A DNA stretch of 64,000 nucleotides from assembly GCF_902170305.1 (NCBI RefSeq), contig NZ_CABHWW010000009.1:186001-250000 (forward strand). Direction: 5' to 3'. A program made the position numbers and the translations under genes. The first letter of the stretch is position 1; each line of letters opens with the position of its first letter. The notes under the pieces are model-generated. The model made no database searches. It saw only the letters and a list, made by a program, of their open reading frames with translations, and was not told where the DNA came from. This document shows, one piece after another, positions 7,427 to 59,150 of the stretch. The stretch is from Yersinia alsatica. Lineage in GTDB: Bacteria; Pseudomonadota; Gammaproteobacteria; Enterobacterales; Enterobacteriaceae.

Positions 7427-7517
7427 AAAAAGAAAAGGCCAGCCCAAGGGAGATTGGGCTAGCCAAGGAGGTGGTTCCTAGTCTTGCTTTAAAACTTTTT
7501 TAGTTCTTGATTGTACT
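7427..7517 (-). ncRNA. cyaR: Hfq-dependent small RNA CyaR (RyeE)
   Basis: On the minus strand the core AGGAACCACCTCCTTGGC matches E. coli CyaR, including the CCUCC-containing seed that pairs with ribosome-binding sites of targets such as ompX. It is followed by AATCTCCCTT and a terminator hairpin (7437-7464, arms around AGCCCAA and TTGGGCT) ending in a TTTTCTTTTTT run. A -10 TAGTAT (7529-7524) puts the start near 7517, giving about 90 nt (E. coli about 87). The location next to trhP (yegQ) is the E. coli location. The terminator stem sequence differs from E. coli while the pairing is kept. The 5' end is inferred. Confidence 0.88.
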
Positions 7518-7550
7518 CGAGCTATACTACCCCAGTGTAATTATAATTGA

Positions 7551-21203: not shown

Positions 21204-21952
21204 GATGGATCTGGTTTGGTTGATATTGGTTCAGGTGATCGGGTTTGGTTGTCGGGTATGGAGCTTAGTTTCGGTTGATATTGGTTTAGTGATCTGATTC
21301 GGTTGACATAAGATTAGCGACAACCTTACCTCCGATGCCTCAACCGCCAAAGGGGTCACAAGCGCGTGACCCCTTGTGGAATCCCCGCGCTTGCGCACGT
21401 ATCGCTAGCCCACTGCGTGGGTGGCCCTCGACTCATCATTTCGCTGACGGTACGGTGTGATTCGCATCCCTGCTCAAGCACACCTCAACCCGCCGTCCAT
21501 GGCGGGTTGCCCTGGCTACACTCTTCACTCGGCTGCTCAAATGTGCTTTAAAAAATTAAAGTCAAAACCATGGTTTTGATTTTGAATTTCTCTTTTGACG
21601 TTGAGCGCAATCGGGAATATTGCCGACAAGGATGGAGGGTAGAGTGAGCCGCCATGGACGGCGGCGAAAAGCGCGCTCGGGCAAGGATGCCCGTCGCGCT
21701 GGCTCGTGAAGCCCGAAAGACGCAGGAGGTTTACCCGTAGGGCAATATTTCGCGCAAGGCGCGGGTGTTGGGCCGCCGCCTTGCGGCCCGACTCGGTTGA
21801 GGCTACGGAGAACAGGTATTCACTAAATGAATATCAACCGAAACCAGATCCATTTTTATATAAACAAAACCGGATCACCGGAATCAATATCAACCGAAAC
21901 CAGATCCATTTTTATATAAACAAAACCAGCTCACCTGAACCAATATCAACTT
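21204..21952. repeat. Structured non-coding repeat element, copy A
   Basis: A 750-bp element between mdtA and yegD, homologous over most of its length to copy B (58347-59150). Two 55-bp direct units on the left (GTTTCGGTTGATATTGGTT type, 21204-21310) face three 56-bp units in reverse orientation on the right (21831-21952). The core holds hairpins at 21350-21375, 21386-21399, 21409-21421, 21487-21508, 21648-21665, 21678-21693 and 21767-21792. A longer-range pair AATATTGCC (21616-21624) with GGCAATATT (21741-21749) encloses the 21648-21693 hairpins. Reading frames in it are not conserved as protein between copies. It ends at the yegD stop codon. I do not recognise the family; a structured RNA and a palindromic mobile element are both possible. 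Confidence 0.85.
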
Positions 21953-28730: not shown

Positions 28731-29062
28731 GCCCTTCGTCCTTGGTGCTGCAGCGGTGTTAGCTGCTCTCACTCACCCGAATCACTGACTGGAGTCAGCT
28801 CATCGGGATTTGTTCGCTTGCTGCCTTGCTGCAATCCCAATGACTTTGGGCAAGCCCTTCGTCTTTGGCGCAGTGGCGGTGTTGGCTGCTTTCACTTACT
28901 CGAATCACTGACTGGAGTCAGCTCATCGGGATTTGCTCGCTTGCTGCCTTGCTGCAACCTCAATGACTTTGGGCAAGCCCTTCGTCTTTGGCGCAGTGGC
29001 GGTGCTAGCTGCTTTCACTCACCCGAATCACTGACTGGAGTCAGCTTATCGGGATTTGTTCT
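28731..29062. repeat. Array of three tandem ERIC elements, yfgG-ppx gap
   Basis: Three head-to-tail copies with an exact 123-bp period (shared GAATCACTGACTGGAGTCAG at 28779, 28902 and 29025). The third is cut short and ends 3 bp before the ppx stop codon. The copies resemble one another more than other ERICs in the window. Frames such as 28818-29117 that cross the array are artefacts of the repeat. Confidence 0.9.
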
Positions 29063-29064
29063 CA

Positions 29065-30627
29065 TTATGCTTTCGGCGCGTCGGCTTCAGTATCTTCCGC
29101 TGCTTCTTCTTCAATAATCAGTTTCCAGCCAACCACATCGTCCCAATATGCCTGCTCGCGCTCAAAATCCAGTTGCACCAGATTATTTTGCGCCAGATAA
29201 CCGGCAGGGAAACGCAGTGTCCAGTGACCATCATCAGTTATCAGTCGCAGACTTTCTGGCGTAGTCGTCGATTGGCGCTGATTGTTCAGTAAAGTACTCA
29301 AACGTAATAGCTGAATTAACGGCAAATAGTACTTTTTCTTGAATAAATTCAGACGCGGCAACTCATCGAGCTTAATCCCTTTACGGTGCATTCTCACCAA
29401 GGTTGCCAGCAATAATTGCTGCTCTTGATTAAAGCCCGGCAAGTTAGTGTTTTGCAGAATATAAGCCGAATGACGGTGCATCCCGCTGTGATTAATGCTC
29501 AGGCCAACTTCATGCAGCATCGCCGCCCATCTTAACAATGCTTCCAACTGCGGTTGTACCAGCTTGGAGTTCTGCGCCAACCATTGAGTGTAAAGCTGCT
29601 CGGTGGTTTCCAACACTCGGCGTGCCTGTTCCCGGTCAATGTTATAGTGCTCGGCCAGACTTTTGGCTGTGCGCTGACGGATATCCTGGTGGCGGAAACG
29701 GCCTTCCATTTCATACAGAACGCCCTCACGCAGCGCACCATCGGATAAACGTAACTCTTTGACAGCTAAGGCATCGAATACACCACACAAGATAGCCAGC
29801 CCCGGCACAAATACCGACTGACGATCTTCTGATAACCCCGGCAGACTCAGTGCGGAGAAATGTTTGAATTGCAGCACTTGATCAACCAGCATCTCAAGGC
29901 GTTCTGGCGTGATCAAACCATCTTTCTCGCCCATCTCCACCAACACTTCATAGGTGGCCTTGATAGTGCCGGATGCGCCAAGCGCATATTGCCAACCTTG
30001 AATCCGATATTGCCACGCCAGATTTTCCAGCTTTTGGGCCGCAGCCAAGCGCGCGCGCTTGAAATTCACTTTACTGATTTCGCCATGCGGGAAGAACTGT
30101 TGAGCAAAGCTGACACAGCCCATGCGGCGGCTTTCTACCAGCAATGGCTCAAAATCCTCGCCAATAACCAACTCGGTTGAACCGCCACCGATATCAATCA
30201 CCAGCTTGCGGCCTTTCTCCGGCTGAGTATGTTCGACGCCCATAAAAATCAGACGTGCCTCTTCCTGACCGGAAATGATTTCAATCGGGTAGGGAATCAC
30301 TTCGGCTGCGCGCTTGAGGAAGGTTTCCGCGTTAGCGGCTTGTCGCAATGAATGAGTACCGACGATGCAGACGTTATCGGGTGAGAAACCCTGCAAACGC
30401 TCAGCAAACAGTGCCAGACAAGCCAGCCCCCGCTCAATAGCTTCTTCGCTGAGCATATTATTGCTATCCAGACCATCAGCCAGATGCACGCGCTGCTTCA
30501 GGCGCCCCAAAACCTGCAAAGCACCGTTGACGACGCGGGCAATTACCATATGGAAACTGTTTGAACCCAAGTCGATAGCTGCAATTTCTTGCGGTTTTGT
30601 GGTAGTCGAATTGTTGGTTAGCGGCAT
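29065..30627 (-). CDS. ppx: Exopolyphosphatase Ppx
   Basis: A 520-residue exopolyphosphatase/GppA-family enzyme that releases phosphate from the ends of polyphosphate. The actin-like fold motifs are [17 protein letters not shown] near the N-terminus and [15 protein letters not shown] near residue 145; an HD-like C-terminal domain follows ([19 protein letters not shown]). It overlaps no gene but lies 10 bp after ppk in the ppk-ppx operon, so polyphosphate synthesis and breakdown are co-transcribed. The downstream edge is an ERIC array. Confidence 0.95.
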
Positions 30628-41962: not shown

Positions 41963-42412
41963 ATACCCTTCGTACTTGAAGCGGCAGGGTTGTTAGCTAC
42001 GCTTACTCACCCGAATCACTTACCTGAGTAAGCTCATCGGGATTCATTCGCTTGCTGCCTACCTGTCGCTCCAATTACTTTGGGTATCCCTGAGTTTGAA
42101 GCGGCAGGGTTGTTAGCTACGCTTACTCACCCGAATCACTTACCTGAGTAAGCTCATCGGGATTCATTCGCTTGCTGCCTACCTGTCGCTCCAATTACTT
42201 TGGGTATCCCTGAGTTTGAAGCGGCAGGGTTGTTAGCTACGCTTACTCACCCGAATCACTTACCTGAGTAAGCTCATCGGGATTCATTCGCTTGCTGCCT
42301 ACCTGTCGCTCCAATTACTTTGGGTATCCCTAGATTTGAAGCGGCAGGGTTGTTAGCTACGTTCATTCACCCGAATCACATGCCTGAGTAAGCTCATCGG
42401 GATTTATTCGCG
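41963..42412. repeat. Array of four tandem ERIC elements, purN-purM gap
   Basis: Head-to-tail ERIC copies with an exact 120-bp period. Positions 42061-42180 and 42181-42300 are identical over 120 bases; the first copy differs only at its outer end (CTTCGTACTTGAAG versus CCTGAGTTTGAAG) and the fourth is diverged and truncated. The unit holds CCCGAATCACTTACC and GGTAAGCTC-like arms around the ERIC centre. The array is a likely variable-number tandem repeat. Confidence 0.95.
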
Positions 42413-46717: not shown

Positions 46718-46721
46718 TCCC

Positions 46722-46940
46722 CCTGCGTCCTTGGCGCCGCAGCGGTGTTAGCTGCGCTCACTCACCCGAATCACTGACTTGAGTCAGCTCATCGGGATGA
46801 GCTCGCTGGCTGCCTTGCTGCAACCCCAATGACTTTGGGGTGTCCTGCGTTTGTGGCGCCGCAGCGGTGTTAGCTGCGCTCACACACCCGAATCACTGAC
46901 TTGAGTCAGCTCATCGGGATGAGCTCGCTGACTGCCGCTG
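46722..46940. repeat. Two tandem ERIC elements between hda and yfgD
   Basis: Two head-to-tail copies with a 122-bp period (GAATCACTGACTTGAGTCAG at 46768 and 46890). The second lacks its right end. They lie between convergent genes. Confidence 0.9.
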
Positions 46941-46961
46941 TACTCAGTTACTAACCCCGAA

Positions 46962-47318
46962 TCACGGCAAGATCTCCAGCACCTGCTCTGGTGGGCGGCC
47001 TATGCGTGCTTTGCCTTGATAAACTACAATCGGGCGCTCGATGAGCTTAGGATTCTCACTCATCGCTTGCAGCAATTGATCCTGTGTCAGTGCCTTATCC
47101 GCCAGATTCAGTGTTTTGTAGAGATCTTCTTTGGTGCGCATCAATTGACGGGCATCACTGAAACCTAGCTGTTGCAGTAATTCTTTCAGGGTTGTCACTG
47201 AAGGTGGGGTATCTAAATACAATACCACTTGCGGCTTAATGCCATGCTGTTCGAGGAGGGCGAGGGTCTCCCGGCTCTTGGTGCAGCGTGGATTATGATA
47301 AATCGTGACCTCTTTCAT
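46962..47318 (-). CDS. yfgD: ArsC-family reductase-like protein YfgD
   Basis: A 118-residue ArsC-like thioredoxin-fold protein (arsenate reductase family; E. coli YfgD is 119). The catalytic Cys is in YHNPRCTKSRETLALLE at residue 12, and the oxyanion-binding Arg in IERPIVVYQGKARIGRPPE. No arsB/arsR neighbours are present, so a role in arsenate resistance is not supported by context. It is 11 bp after bepA in the same direction, as in E. coli. Confidence 0.88.
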   Translation of the reverse strand: MKEVTIYHNPRCTKSRETLALLEQHGIKPQVVLYLDTPPSVTTLKELLQQLGFSDARQLMRTKEDLYKTLNLADKALTQDQLLQAMSENPKLIERPIVVYQGKARIGRPPEQVLEILP

Positions 47319-50243: not shown

Positions 50244-50671
50244 TCCCCTGCGCCCTTGCCGCTGCAGCGGTGTTAGCTGCACTCACTCACCCGAATTACT
50301 GACTGGAGTCAGCTCATCGGGATGAGTTCGCTGGCTGCCTTGCTGCAACAGCAATGGCTTTGGGGATATATTGCGCCCTTGTCGCCGTGGCGGTGTTAGT
50401 TGCACTCACTCACCCGAATAACTGACTGGAGTCAGCTCATCGGGATGAGTTCGCTGGCTGCCTTGCTGCAACAGCAATGGCTTTGGGGATATATTGCGCC
50501 CTTGTCGCCGTGGCGGTGTTAGCTGCACTCACTCACCCGAATCACTGACTGGAGTCAGCTCATCGGGATGAGTTCGCTGGCTGCCTTGCTGCAACAGCAA
50601 TGGCTTTGGGGATATATTGCGCCCTTGCCACTGTGGCGGTGTTAGCTGCACTCACTCACCCGAATCACTGA
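50244..50671. repeat. Array of four tandem ERIC elements, perM-bcp gap
   Basis: Head-to-tail copies with an exact 123-bp period (ACTCACTCACCCGAAT at 50281, 50404, 50527 and 50650). All share a private variant, GCAATGGCTTTGGGGATATA, at the unit junction. The fourth is cut after its left half, where the bcp terminator begins. Confidence 0.93.
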
Positions 50672-56297: not shown

Positions 56298-58370
56298 GTG
56301 AATAATGCGATTATTGCTTGTCAGCCAATTGTTGCCCGCCAATCATTGATGGCGCAGCAGGGAATTCGGCGCTTATTGGTGCTCAGTGGCCGTGCCGATT
56401 GGGCACGACAGCAGGCGCTGGCGCTATGTGGGCAATTAGCCGGGGATTGGTTGTGGATTGGCGAGGATCTACCGGCAGGTATTAATGGCATTCGCCCGGC
56501 AGCAGCAAAAACCTTGCTTGGTCAAGAGTGGCTTCACGCGGTGTTTGATGCCACCGACGGTTTGAATACTGAAGCACTGGCGGTGCTGGCGGGAACATTG
56601 CGAGCGGGCAGTTGGTTGGTGCTGTTAGTGCCGGAATGGCACCGCTGGCCGCATTTGCCCGATCGCGATAGTCTGCGCTGGAGTGAACAAAGTGAGCCAA
56701 TCATAACGCCCAACTTTATTCAGCATATGCAACGGCAAATTCTGGCTGATTCCGATGCTATTTTATGGCAACAAGGTCAGCCGCTCTCGCTGAGTGCCGG
56801 GGATTGCTATCCTGACTGGTTCCCGCCGGAGGGTACGCCAACCACGGAACAGCAACAGATTTTGCAGCGCCTGATGCAGGCAGAGGCGGGTGTCTGGGTG
56901 TTGACTGCGGCCCGAGGGCGGGGGAAGTCGGCACTCGCCGGGATGCTGGTGGCATCTTGGCCGGGCAACTGTTGGGTTACCGGTCCGGGGAAAGCGGCCA
57001 CTCAGGTGTTGAGCCAGCGAGCAGGGGAGCGGGCGCGCTTTTGGGCACCAGATGCGCTATTGGATTACTGCCAGCAACATGATGTCAGTGAGATTGATTG
57101 GCTATTGATTGATGAGGCTGCCGCTATCCCGACTGCGCTGTTATCCGCACTCTTGGCCTATTTCCCTCGAGCATTATTAACAACCACGGTACAGGGATAT
57201 GAGGGCACCGGGCGCGGCTTCTTATTGAAGTTTTGCGCCACTTTGAGTGATTGGCATCATTTAACCCTGTCCGACCCGATTCGCTGGGCCAGCCATGATC
57301 CGCTGGAGCGCATTGTGGATGACATTATGTTGTTCAATGATGAGTTGCCAGCAGCTCAATCTCTTGGCGCACAAGTTGATATCATTCCTTGTGAGCAGCG
57401 CGCCTGGCTGGATAATCCTGAATTACTGCGGCATTTCTATGGCTTACTCTCCAGCGCGCATTACCGCACCACTCCCCTTGATCTCCGGCGTTTGCTGGAT
57501 GCGCCGGGAATGCACTTCTCAGTGGCGAAAGCCGCAGATTCAGTTATTGGTGCTTTGTGGCTGGTGGATGAGGGCGGCCTGGATAGCAGCTTAGCTCAGG
57601 ATGTCTGGGCTGGCAGGCGGCGGCCCAAGGGCAGTTTAGTGGCGCAATCTTTGGCGGCTCACAGTGGTCAATGGCAGGCACCGACCTTGTTATCACGGCG
57701 CATTAGCCGCGTGGCAGTCACGCCATCATGGCGGCGCCAAGGTATTGCCCGCCAGATGATTTTCGCCGAGTTGGCACGAGCACAACAGGACCAGCTTGAT
57801 TTTCTTTCGGTCAGTTTTGGTTATACCGCCGAGTTAGCCGCTTTTTGGCATGCCTGTGGATTTCATCTGGTGCGCATAGGCAGCCACCGAGAGGCCAGTA
57901 GCGGCTGTTATGCTGCTATGGCGATATTACCCTTGAGTTGTGCGGGGCATGCGCTCTATGACTCAGCGCGGCAGCAATTAGCGCGCGATTGGTATTGGTT
58001 GCAGCAATGGATTGATCTGGACACGCCACTATCGTTGCCACAGTCAGAACCGGTTGATATCACTTTAAATGACGACGACTGGCGCGAACTTACCGGATTT
58101 GCTTTTGCTTTCCGCCCATTAGAGGCTAGTTTGCCCGCTTTGCAGCGGCTGCTATTACAGCCTGAACTGTTGCAGACTGAGTTACCTCTTGTCGCATTGC
58201 GGCAATATTTACAGCAGGGCATTGCACCAGCAGAGATTGTTAGCCATCTGGGGATTTCAGGTCGCAAGGCATTGATGGCCCAGTGGCGGCAAGAGGCAGC
58301 ACAGGGGATGGCGGCGGTTGATGTTATTAAAGTGGGGTTGGCGGGCGGATCAGGTTTCGGTTGGTATTGA
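56298..58370 (+). CDS. tmcA: tRNA(Met) cytidine acetyltransferase TmcA
   Basis: A 690-residue enzyme making N4-acetylcytidine at the wobble base of elongator tRNA-Met. N-terminal DUF1726 domain, RNA-helicase ATPase module with P-loop [12 protein letters not shown] and Walker [11 protein letters not shown], then a GNAT acetyltransferase ([22 protein letters not shown]) and a tRNA-binding tail. The start is GTG at 56298. The last eight residues (GGSGFGWY) and the stop codon are encoded by the first repeat unit of structured element copy B, so the C-terminus has been rewritten by it. Confidence 0.92.
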
Positions 58371-59150
58371 TTCCGGTGATCCGGTTTGGTTATTGAGTAT
58401 CGGATCTAGTTTCGGTTGATATTGATTCTGGTGATCCGGTTCGGTTGACATAAGATTGGCTGCAACCTCACCTCCGATGCCTCAACCGCCAAAGAGGTCA
58501 CAAGCGCGTGACCCCTTTGGAATCCCCGTGCTTGCGCACGTATCGCTAGCCCACTTCGTGGGTGGCCCTCGACTCATCGTTTCGCTGACGGACCGCCGTG
58601 ATTATTGCCTCTTCGAGGCTACCCTTCGGGCCAACGCAAGCGTTGTTCAAAACTGCTCCGCAGTGTTGTCGCATCCATGCTCAAGCACGGCTCGCTCGGC
58701 ATCCATGCCTCGCGTCCTATCTCCACTCTTCACTCGGCTGCTCAAATGTGCTTTAAAAGATTAAGGTCAACACCATGATTTTGACGTTGAGCGCAATCAG
58801 AGATATTGCCGACAAGGATTAAGGGTAGAGTGAGCGGGCATGGACGCCCGCGAAAAGCGCGCTTGAGCATGGATGCGAATCGCGCTGGCTCGTCAGCCCG
58901 AAAGACGCGGGAGGTTTACCCGTAGGGCAATATTTCGCGCAAGCCGCAGGTGCAGGAGGGCCGGCTTGCCCTCCTGCTCGGTTGAGGTGGTGGAGAACAG
59001 GTGATCACCGAATGAATACCAACCGAAACCAAACTCCATACCCGACAACCGAACCGGATCACCAGAATCAATACCAACCGAAACCAAACTCCATACCCGA
59101 CAACCGAAACGGATCACCGAAATCAATACCAACCAAACCCAGCCCCCATA
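58347..59150. repeat. Structured non-coding repeat element, copy B
   Basis: Homologue of copy A in the same plus-strand orientation. Two 55-bp units on the left (TTTCGGTTG at 58355 and 58410) and three inverted on the right (ATACCAACCG type at 59016, 59071 and 59126; degenerate trace to about 59205). Core hairpins shared with A: 58492-58517, 58527-58540, 58550-58562, 58834-58851, 58952-58977. A block absent from A (58607-58664) holds four more short hairpins. A 16-bp inverted pair joins 58671-58686 to 58861-58876. The left end supplies the tmcA stop. Frame 58456-58764 is not protein-conserved. Confidence 0.85.

Follow-up and report, generated by a model that had tools for sequence, protein, structure and literature searches.

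The question raised by this locus is what the two similar stretches at positions 21204-21952 and 58347-59150 of the window (the whole stretch of Yersinia alsatica DNA that was analysed, 64,000 nucleotides long) represent, and what such a sequence might do behind genes. The initial annotation took them for an undescribed, hairpin-rich repeat of two copies with common end repeats. Comparison of the window with itself bears out the shared repeat: the two stretches are copies of one noncoding element, with aligned blocks that are 81-92% identical, long inverted repeats in both copies, and tandemly repeated ends (unit of 55-56 nt) that oppose each other across the element. Each copy contains two arms on opposite strands that resemble the Rfam family TwoAYGGAY (RF01731, gathering cut-off 43 bits), and these arms were also scored with R1, an arm covariance model built from 10 sequences (alignment A1) and run on 56 sources. 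The features of the two copies are as follows.

21204-21952, no strand assigned: copy 1, between mdtA (on the element's 5' side) and the yegD stop codon
21215-21294, plus strand: left end repeats of copy 1, units of the GGTTTCGGTTGATATTGATTC type
21438-21519, minus strand: arm B of copy 1, a TwoAYGGAY-type domain that scores 38.1 bits with Rfam (21445-21514; cut-off missed) and 89.8 bits with R1
21465-21472, minus strand: hairpin-2 loop octamer of arm B of copy 1, which reads CANGGAYG on that strand
21494-21501, minus strand: hairpin-1 loop octamer of arm B of copy 1, which reads CANGGAYG on that strand
21635-21718, plus strand: arm A of copy 1, a TwoAYGGAY-type domain that scores 42.2 bits with Rfam (21640-21718; cut-off narrowly missed) and 93.3 bits with R1
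21653-21660, plus strand: hairpin-1 loop octamer of arm A of copy 1, CATGGACG
21682-21689, plus strand: hairpin-2 loop octamer of arm A of copy 1, CAAGGATG
21826-21950, minus strand: right end repeats of copy 1, in inverted orientation to those on the left and with a unit of 56 nt in tandem
58347-59150, no strand assigned: copy 2, between tmcA (end altered) and ypfH
58347-58447, plus strand: left end repeats of copy 2, within which the frame of tmcA now stops (58368-58370)
58646-58726, minus strand: the diverged arm B of copy 2, scoring 18.4 bits with R1 (E 0.007) and matching Rfam weakly at 21.1 bits (E 1.9)
58821-58903, plus strand: arm A of copy 2, which scores 44.3 bits with Rfam (58826-58908; cut-off passed) and 90.8 bits with R1
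59010-59119, minus strand: right end repeats of copy 2, with a unit of 55 nt in tandem

The diverged arm B of copy 2 retains both loop octamers (at 58672 and 58700), and those of its arm A lie at 58839 and 58868. Copy 1 directly follows the stop codon of yegD, as had been claimed for both copies, but at copy 2 the last codons of tmcA (58343-58370) are seen, by comparison with relatives, to have been replaced by element sequence, which gives the gene product a new C-terminus. Both copies are real, but they are members of a larger family, since the source genome (G000) holds 18 matching pieces, which amount to some six copies of near-full length in addition to several that are truncated. A scan of this genome with the end-repeat pattern gave 11 matches, nine of them inside recognised copies, against none in the control.

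At least one match, in some cases a weak one, is present in all 25 genomes of the genus searched, the source genome included. When 84,980 GTDB species genomes were scanned for an exact 24-nt core pattern, 38 stretches were found, all of them in Yersinia; the pattern is absent from the viral contigs searched, and the element core had no match in the phage, plasmid or E. coli searches. Within a sample of 198 genomes of the family, seven have matches (three of the genus and four of others), where copy numbers are lower bounds as only three candidates were scored per genome. In three of the four genomes from outside the genus the matches span only about 22-45 nt, and the fourth (G071) harbors an element that is clearly related and shares the end motif.

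Orthologous sites vary in the presence or absence of the element among species, in line with the initial suggestion of a non-autonomous mobile element. The yegD site carries an element, a fragment or a stub in 15 of 25 genomes, in either orientation, and in the nearest relative a stub of end repeats alone remains. Between tmcA and ypfH anything is seen in only four of 23 loci, viz., the full copy of the source genome, an element in the distant genome G016 and remnants in two others. Two further sites are more widely occupied, one (L005) by an element or fragment in 18 of 25 genomes, eight of these being at least 550 bp long, and another (L004) in nine of 24, four of them at least 590 bp. The dispersed copies, their inverted ends and the lack of coding capacity are all features expected of a MITE. 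Because many sites are common to several species, the presumed transposition looks old and rare; the insertions look old, decaying and in part lost, and current transposition, if any, seems rare. The target duplication in print for the Yersinia repeats ERIC and YPAL is TA, and no clear target site duplication is seen at the yegD, tmcA and L004 sites, where the flanks are decayed or tandemly repeated.

At some loci (L074, L077 and L084 beside yegD; L003 and L132) the edge of the element also carries six-base microsatellites, (TTGATG)n and (AATTGG)n, whose number of units differs between species. Between the two genomes of the last two loci the element is 99.5% identical over 550 bp with flanks that are about 91-94% identical, and this high identity may reflect either recent exchange or strong constraint.

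The core of the element is known in part. One of the four window arms, arm A of copy 2, passes the gathering cut-off of TwoAYGGAY, and across both copies the matches to this family lie on the plus strand in the right half and on the minus strand in the left half, the latter being weak in copy 2. Matches above the cut-off are present in eight of the 25 genus genomes. The two hairpins with AYGGAY-type loops and covarying stems that characterize RF01731 are likewise found in the arms (118 R1 matches, 91 of them distinct). The initial annotation had named a match to an Rfam family as an outcome that would speak against it, and TwoAYGGAY is such a match; its word "undescribed" therefore fails for the core, but stands for the composite form, since no description of an element with two divergent arms on opposite strands, 550-800 bp long and placed at gene ends was found in the open-access literature searched. 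The arm is a known Rfam motif, and the composite is a new variant within the reach of that literature. Two catalogued repeats, Kristensenii39 and Aldovae3 (142 and 154 bp; named in PMC2847712), may be pieces of the element, so the composite has perhaps been partly catalogued. TwoAYGGAY was first described in 2010 (PMC2864571), and a proposal that it binds CsrA has already been published (PMC4333381); a tested function for the motif was not found in the open-access literature searched. The available portions of the main text of a Yersinia enterocolitica transcriptome paper (PMC6478967) mention neither TwoAYGGAY nor repeats. What the present analysis adds to the published CsrA proposal is where the motif is located and how it is built into a repeat.

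Hairpins, and not reading frames, dominate the conserved sequence, as had been noted at the outset. Both window copies fold beyond chance (z of -15.6 and -16.5, reached by none of 20 shuffles for either copy). In the minimum-energy fold of each full copy the two halves pair as one giant hairpin, in competition with local hairpins, and the consensus of 49 copies (604 nt) likewise folds as one hairpin at -302.9 kcal/mol. Over the same 49 copies there is no reading-frame signal. A conserved small protein is therefore next to inconceivable despite the short open frames that are present, given that the longest open run averages 104 aa as against 121 aa in shuffles, that only 12.5% of the gaps under 30 nt are multiples of three, and that the frame pointed out in the initial annotation, when searched by its motif, occurs in six of 49 copies. 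We reject the coding reading on these grounds.

The stems of the arms covary, which supports the suggestion of a structured RNA that the initial annotation had also made and for which a covariance model was the proposed check. In the alignment of 91 distinct arms, which was fitted to the structure and hence favours a covariation signal, 88.9% of paired cells form pairs as compared to 69.9% after shuffling, double-change cells number 316 against 90 (sd 16), and the covariation score is 0.446 against 0.153. Double changes are seen in 16 of 19 pairs, the shuffled mean being 12.4 and the observed value being reached by one of 500 shuffles, and the signal collapses when the partner columns are slid by one to three positions. 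In alignment A1, which comprises 10 arms aligned using MAFFT without a model, six of 11 predicted pairs show double changes that keep the pair. The inner helix of hairpin 2 is weaker, with 73.4% standard pairs; at two of its five pairs G stands opposite A, and standard pairing is lacking there in 56 and 59 of the 91 rows.

The arms of a copy are not alike. R1 gave 118 arm matches in the 56 sources, one of which (L001) duplicates copy 1 of the window, and in all 47 loci with exactly two matches the arms fall into different sequence clusters; these loci are not independent cases because orthologous copies are included. Forty of the 47 are plain combinations of clusters, (2,4) or (3,4), two come from another genus and five have altered arms, where variants 5, 6, 8, 10 and 11 were read from their letters as altered A arms. 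Over 46 loci, an arm resembles the arms of other copies (0.62) more closely than the second arm of its own copy (0.54), and all 2000 permutations were as high. The element is thus a fusion of two unlike arms that has been inherited as such, and since each copy pairs unlike arms it is not maintained as a matched palindrome; a homogenised palindrome is rejected. Some arms carry additional hairpin-like inserts (L072, L073, L084, L141 and the window at about 58604-58670), and those of L072, L073 and L084 add one more GGA hairpin. In one species two loci (L120 and L121) have arm-A units in tandem, four and six of them, with a period of 332-344 bp.

The most constant part of the arm is its loops. 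In hairpin 1 the loop letters A, G, G and A are each found in 88 of the 88 letters present, and in hairpin 2 the corresponding counts are 84 of 88, 88 of 88, 74 of 88 and 75 of 75. Irrespective of the column, GGA is present in the hairpin-1 segment of 90 of the 91 arms, in the hairpin-2 segment of 89 and in both of 88, a few of these rows being rearranged arms; the R1 matches do lean towards GGA, because the 10 source arms all carry it. The mean entropy is 0.12 over the eight loop-core columns, 0.91 over 36 other unpaired columns and 0.80 over 38 stem columns. Some of the other hairpin loops of the element vary more (for example, TTC in 14, TGC in 11 and four other triplets, among 31 copies), and one cap loop hardly varies (15 of 16). 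Since the copies share ancestry, conservation alone is weak evidence.

These loops resemble CsrA binding sites in their layout. According to the portions available of a review (PMC7652899), the selected CsrA site is RUACARGGAUGU, mostly in six-base loops, the selected ligands mostly have four or fewer pairs, and one CsrA dimer can bridge two sites that are 10-63 nt apart, best beyond 18. In the arms, CANGGAYG or CAGGAYG is present in hairpin 1 of 87 of 91, and a regular ANGGA is found after the first loop in 64, many of the others having a four-base AGGA loop. Within these 64 regular arms the two GGA are 28-30 nt apart in 60 and 13-42 nt apart in four, so that, as read from the sequence, GGA in short hairpin loops and two putative sites within the bridging distance are both present. 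Hairpin 1, with six model pairs that are mostly G-C, exceeds most selected CsrA ligands in stability. Of the 17 CANGGAYG octamers on the two strands of the 64-kb window, nine lie inside the two elements, which occupy 2.4% of its length and would be expected to hold about 0.4; as a control, ANGGA is found in two of 13 ends of the ERIC-like repeats in the window. Of 26 R1 matches that come from other families of the order, 25 retain GGA in hairpin 1 and 22 in hairpin 2, counts that come from a model favouring GGA, and the other letters differ much.

The arms are not assembled in the manner of a CsrA sponge. A CsrB gene is present in the source genome (275 bits), and a strict GGA-hairpin counter finds 11 such hairpins in CsrB as compared to 1-3 per element strand, values that do not stand out clearly from shuffles for any of the four strands (reached by 35, 276, 335 and 214 of 500). 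As stated in part of a published account (PMC8144298), nine (CsrC) to about 18 (CsrB) GGA motifs are carried by one sRNA, and such multiplicity is lacking in the element; we therefore reject a CsrB-like multi-site sponge because of the few GGA hairpins per strand.

The element lies at gene ends. For most counts the loci are the best BLAST matches to copy 1 and not a random sample, the gene calls being mechanical and the locus groups assigned by hand. Among 54 such loci, 22 are between convergent genes, 26 between tandem genes and two between divergent genes, with four unresolved. Of the 54, 52 have a stop codon facing the element, which lies at most 60 nt away in 46, and in six a gene overlaps the matched span. 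Grouping yields 20 sites (nine convergent, nine tandem, one divergent and one unresolved), and against the small baseline of 34 gene pairs of the window that are separated by 30 nt or more (five convergent, 26 tandem and three divergent) convergent sites are enriched (p = 0.02); the depletion of divergent sites is not significant. Where an arm A is recognised in a tandem locus, the sense strand carries arm A in 10 cases and arm B in 10, not all of which are independent. Scans for sigma-70 promoters and for terminator-like signals did no better than shuffles, and no promoter was found.

Based on these observations, we hypothesize, with confidence that tips only just past an even balance, that the element is an old MITE-like Yersinia repeat which supplies the 3' ends of mRNAs with a two-hairpin CsrA site, whichever strand is read. 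This CsrA mechanism is the best-supported reading of the sequence evidence. The proposed old, non-autonomous repeat carries as its cargo a divergent pair of TwoAYGGAY-type domains, arm B on one strand and arm A on the other. Because the element sits mainly just behind stop codons, read-through transcripts arriving from either side would each carry one arm in sense. The sense arm would then fold into two short hairpins with GGA in their loops, and the usual spacing of 28-30 nt could allow a single CsrA dimer to span both. Such a two-site dock at mRNA 3' ends may stabilise or mark the mRNA, or titrate CsrA in small doses, and would in this way affect the host genes.

The same observations can be accounted for without CsrA. 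The element may be a purely selfish MITE or foldback element with no part in host regulation, its hairpins and GGA loops serving, as single-stranded DNA, for recognition by a trans-acting transposase. Its occurrence throughout the genus, the inverted and tandemly repeated ends whose pattern falls mostly in recognised copies, the varying occupancy of orthologous sites, the lack of a conserved protein, and the arrangement of related arms in other families as minus/plus pairs or tandem arrays are all what such an element would show. We nonetheless regard this as improbable, as no clear target duplication marks the compared sites, the sharing of many sites by several species points to old and rare transposition, and the loops match a known protein-RNA motif, and Rfam places TwoAYGGAY in one clan (CL00106) with CsrB.

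More doubtful still is a 3'-end hairpin that protects mRNAs or terminates transcription from both sides independently of CsrA. The proximity of stop codons, the excess of convergent gene pairs and the very stable fold are consistent with it, and the Yersinia repeats ERIC and YPAL, which were proposed to act as RNA hairpins in the available portions of three studies (PMC2267715, PMC2759123, PMC3733652), provide a precedent, but it leaves unexplained why the loop letters are more conserved than the stems, and the terminator-like scans do not favour it. The giant hairpin formed by the 49-copy consensus could also be taken to mean that the whole palindrome is the functional unit, as a cruciform or a chromosome-organising site. 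The unmatched arms within copies and the different positions of the element between species make this very improbable, and the chromosomal organisation signal that the initial annotation had considered gained no support.

The proposed CsrA docks may bear on TwoAYGGAY at large. In an order-wide scan with six candidates scored per genome, so that copy numbers are lower bounds, TwoAYGGAY is found at E <= 0.001 in 90 of 394 genomes (71 of them over the cut-off) and in 22 of 115 genera, frequently more than once per genome. Three loci from other families of the order (L200, L201 and L204) have minus/plus pairs of the motif 69-96 nt apart, in the same layout as in the element, and others have it in tandem (20 of 30 loci rescanned). 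Thus, TwoAYGGAY acts as a dispersed repeat well beyond Yersinia, and here it is the conserved cargo of a dispersed, two-stranded repeat. It is tempting, if speculative, to suggest that a transposon-derived family has scattered strand-symmetric CsrA docks behind genes throughout the genus, where either orientation would put downstream RNA under Csr control, and that TwoAYGGAY in general is a mobile CsrA-site cargo in many gammaproteobacteria and not a fixed RNA gene. Eukaryotic transposons spread transcription-factor sites, and, if CsrA binds, the element would be a clear parallel in which mobile DNA spreads sites for a global RNA-binding regulator.

Compared with known systems, the element shares with the Rfam TwoAYGGAY family the two-hairpin arm with its AYGGAY-type loops, and the presence of several copies, some as minus/plus pairs, in other families of the order, whereas Rfam models a single arm and the element fuses two unlike arms of opposite strands and has its own ends and cap hairpins. 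With CsrB/RsmB (RF00018) it has in common the loop GGA of the form CAGGATG and the Rfam clan; CsrB, in contrast, is a dedicated sRNA with its 11 hairpins in 322 nt, and the element has two per arm. YPAL (RU-2, 168 bp) is likewise a Yersinia MITE, and its printed sequence, in the part of PMC2759123 that gives it, has two CANGGAYG on one strand, 24 nt apart, but YPAL is shorter and has no detectable homology to the element. We reject YPAL as an ancestor, as its printed sequence had no match in the window by nhmmer or blastn and none in a search of the genome run without a positive control. RsmU of Xanthomonas, going by its description in portions of PMC7694677 and not by sequence comparison, is an RNA of a 3' UTR which binds RsmA, a homologue of CsrA, much as the element is predicted to bind CsrA; unlike the element it is a single locus that yields a processed sRNA, and its function survived replacement of the predicted GGA motifs.

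ERIC is, like the element, an intergenic repeat of Yersinia, but at ~120 bp it constitutes a separate repeat family. Some 16 repeats of about this length, which we take to be ERIC-like, are present elsewhere in the window (for example, 28731-29097, 41965-42325, 46720-46962 and 50245-50611), so that the chromosome around the two copies is not the otherwise unique sequence that had been assumed. Several of them form head-to-tail arrays of two to four with a period of 120-123 bp. The window also contains a gene for the CyaR/RyeE sRNA on the minus strand at 7432-7520 (Rfam RF00112, 92.9 bits).
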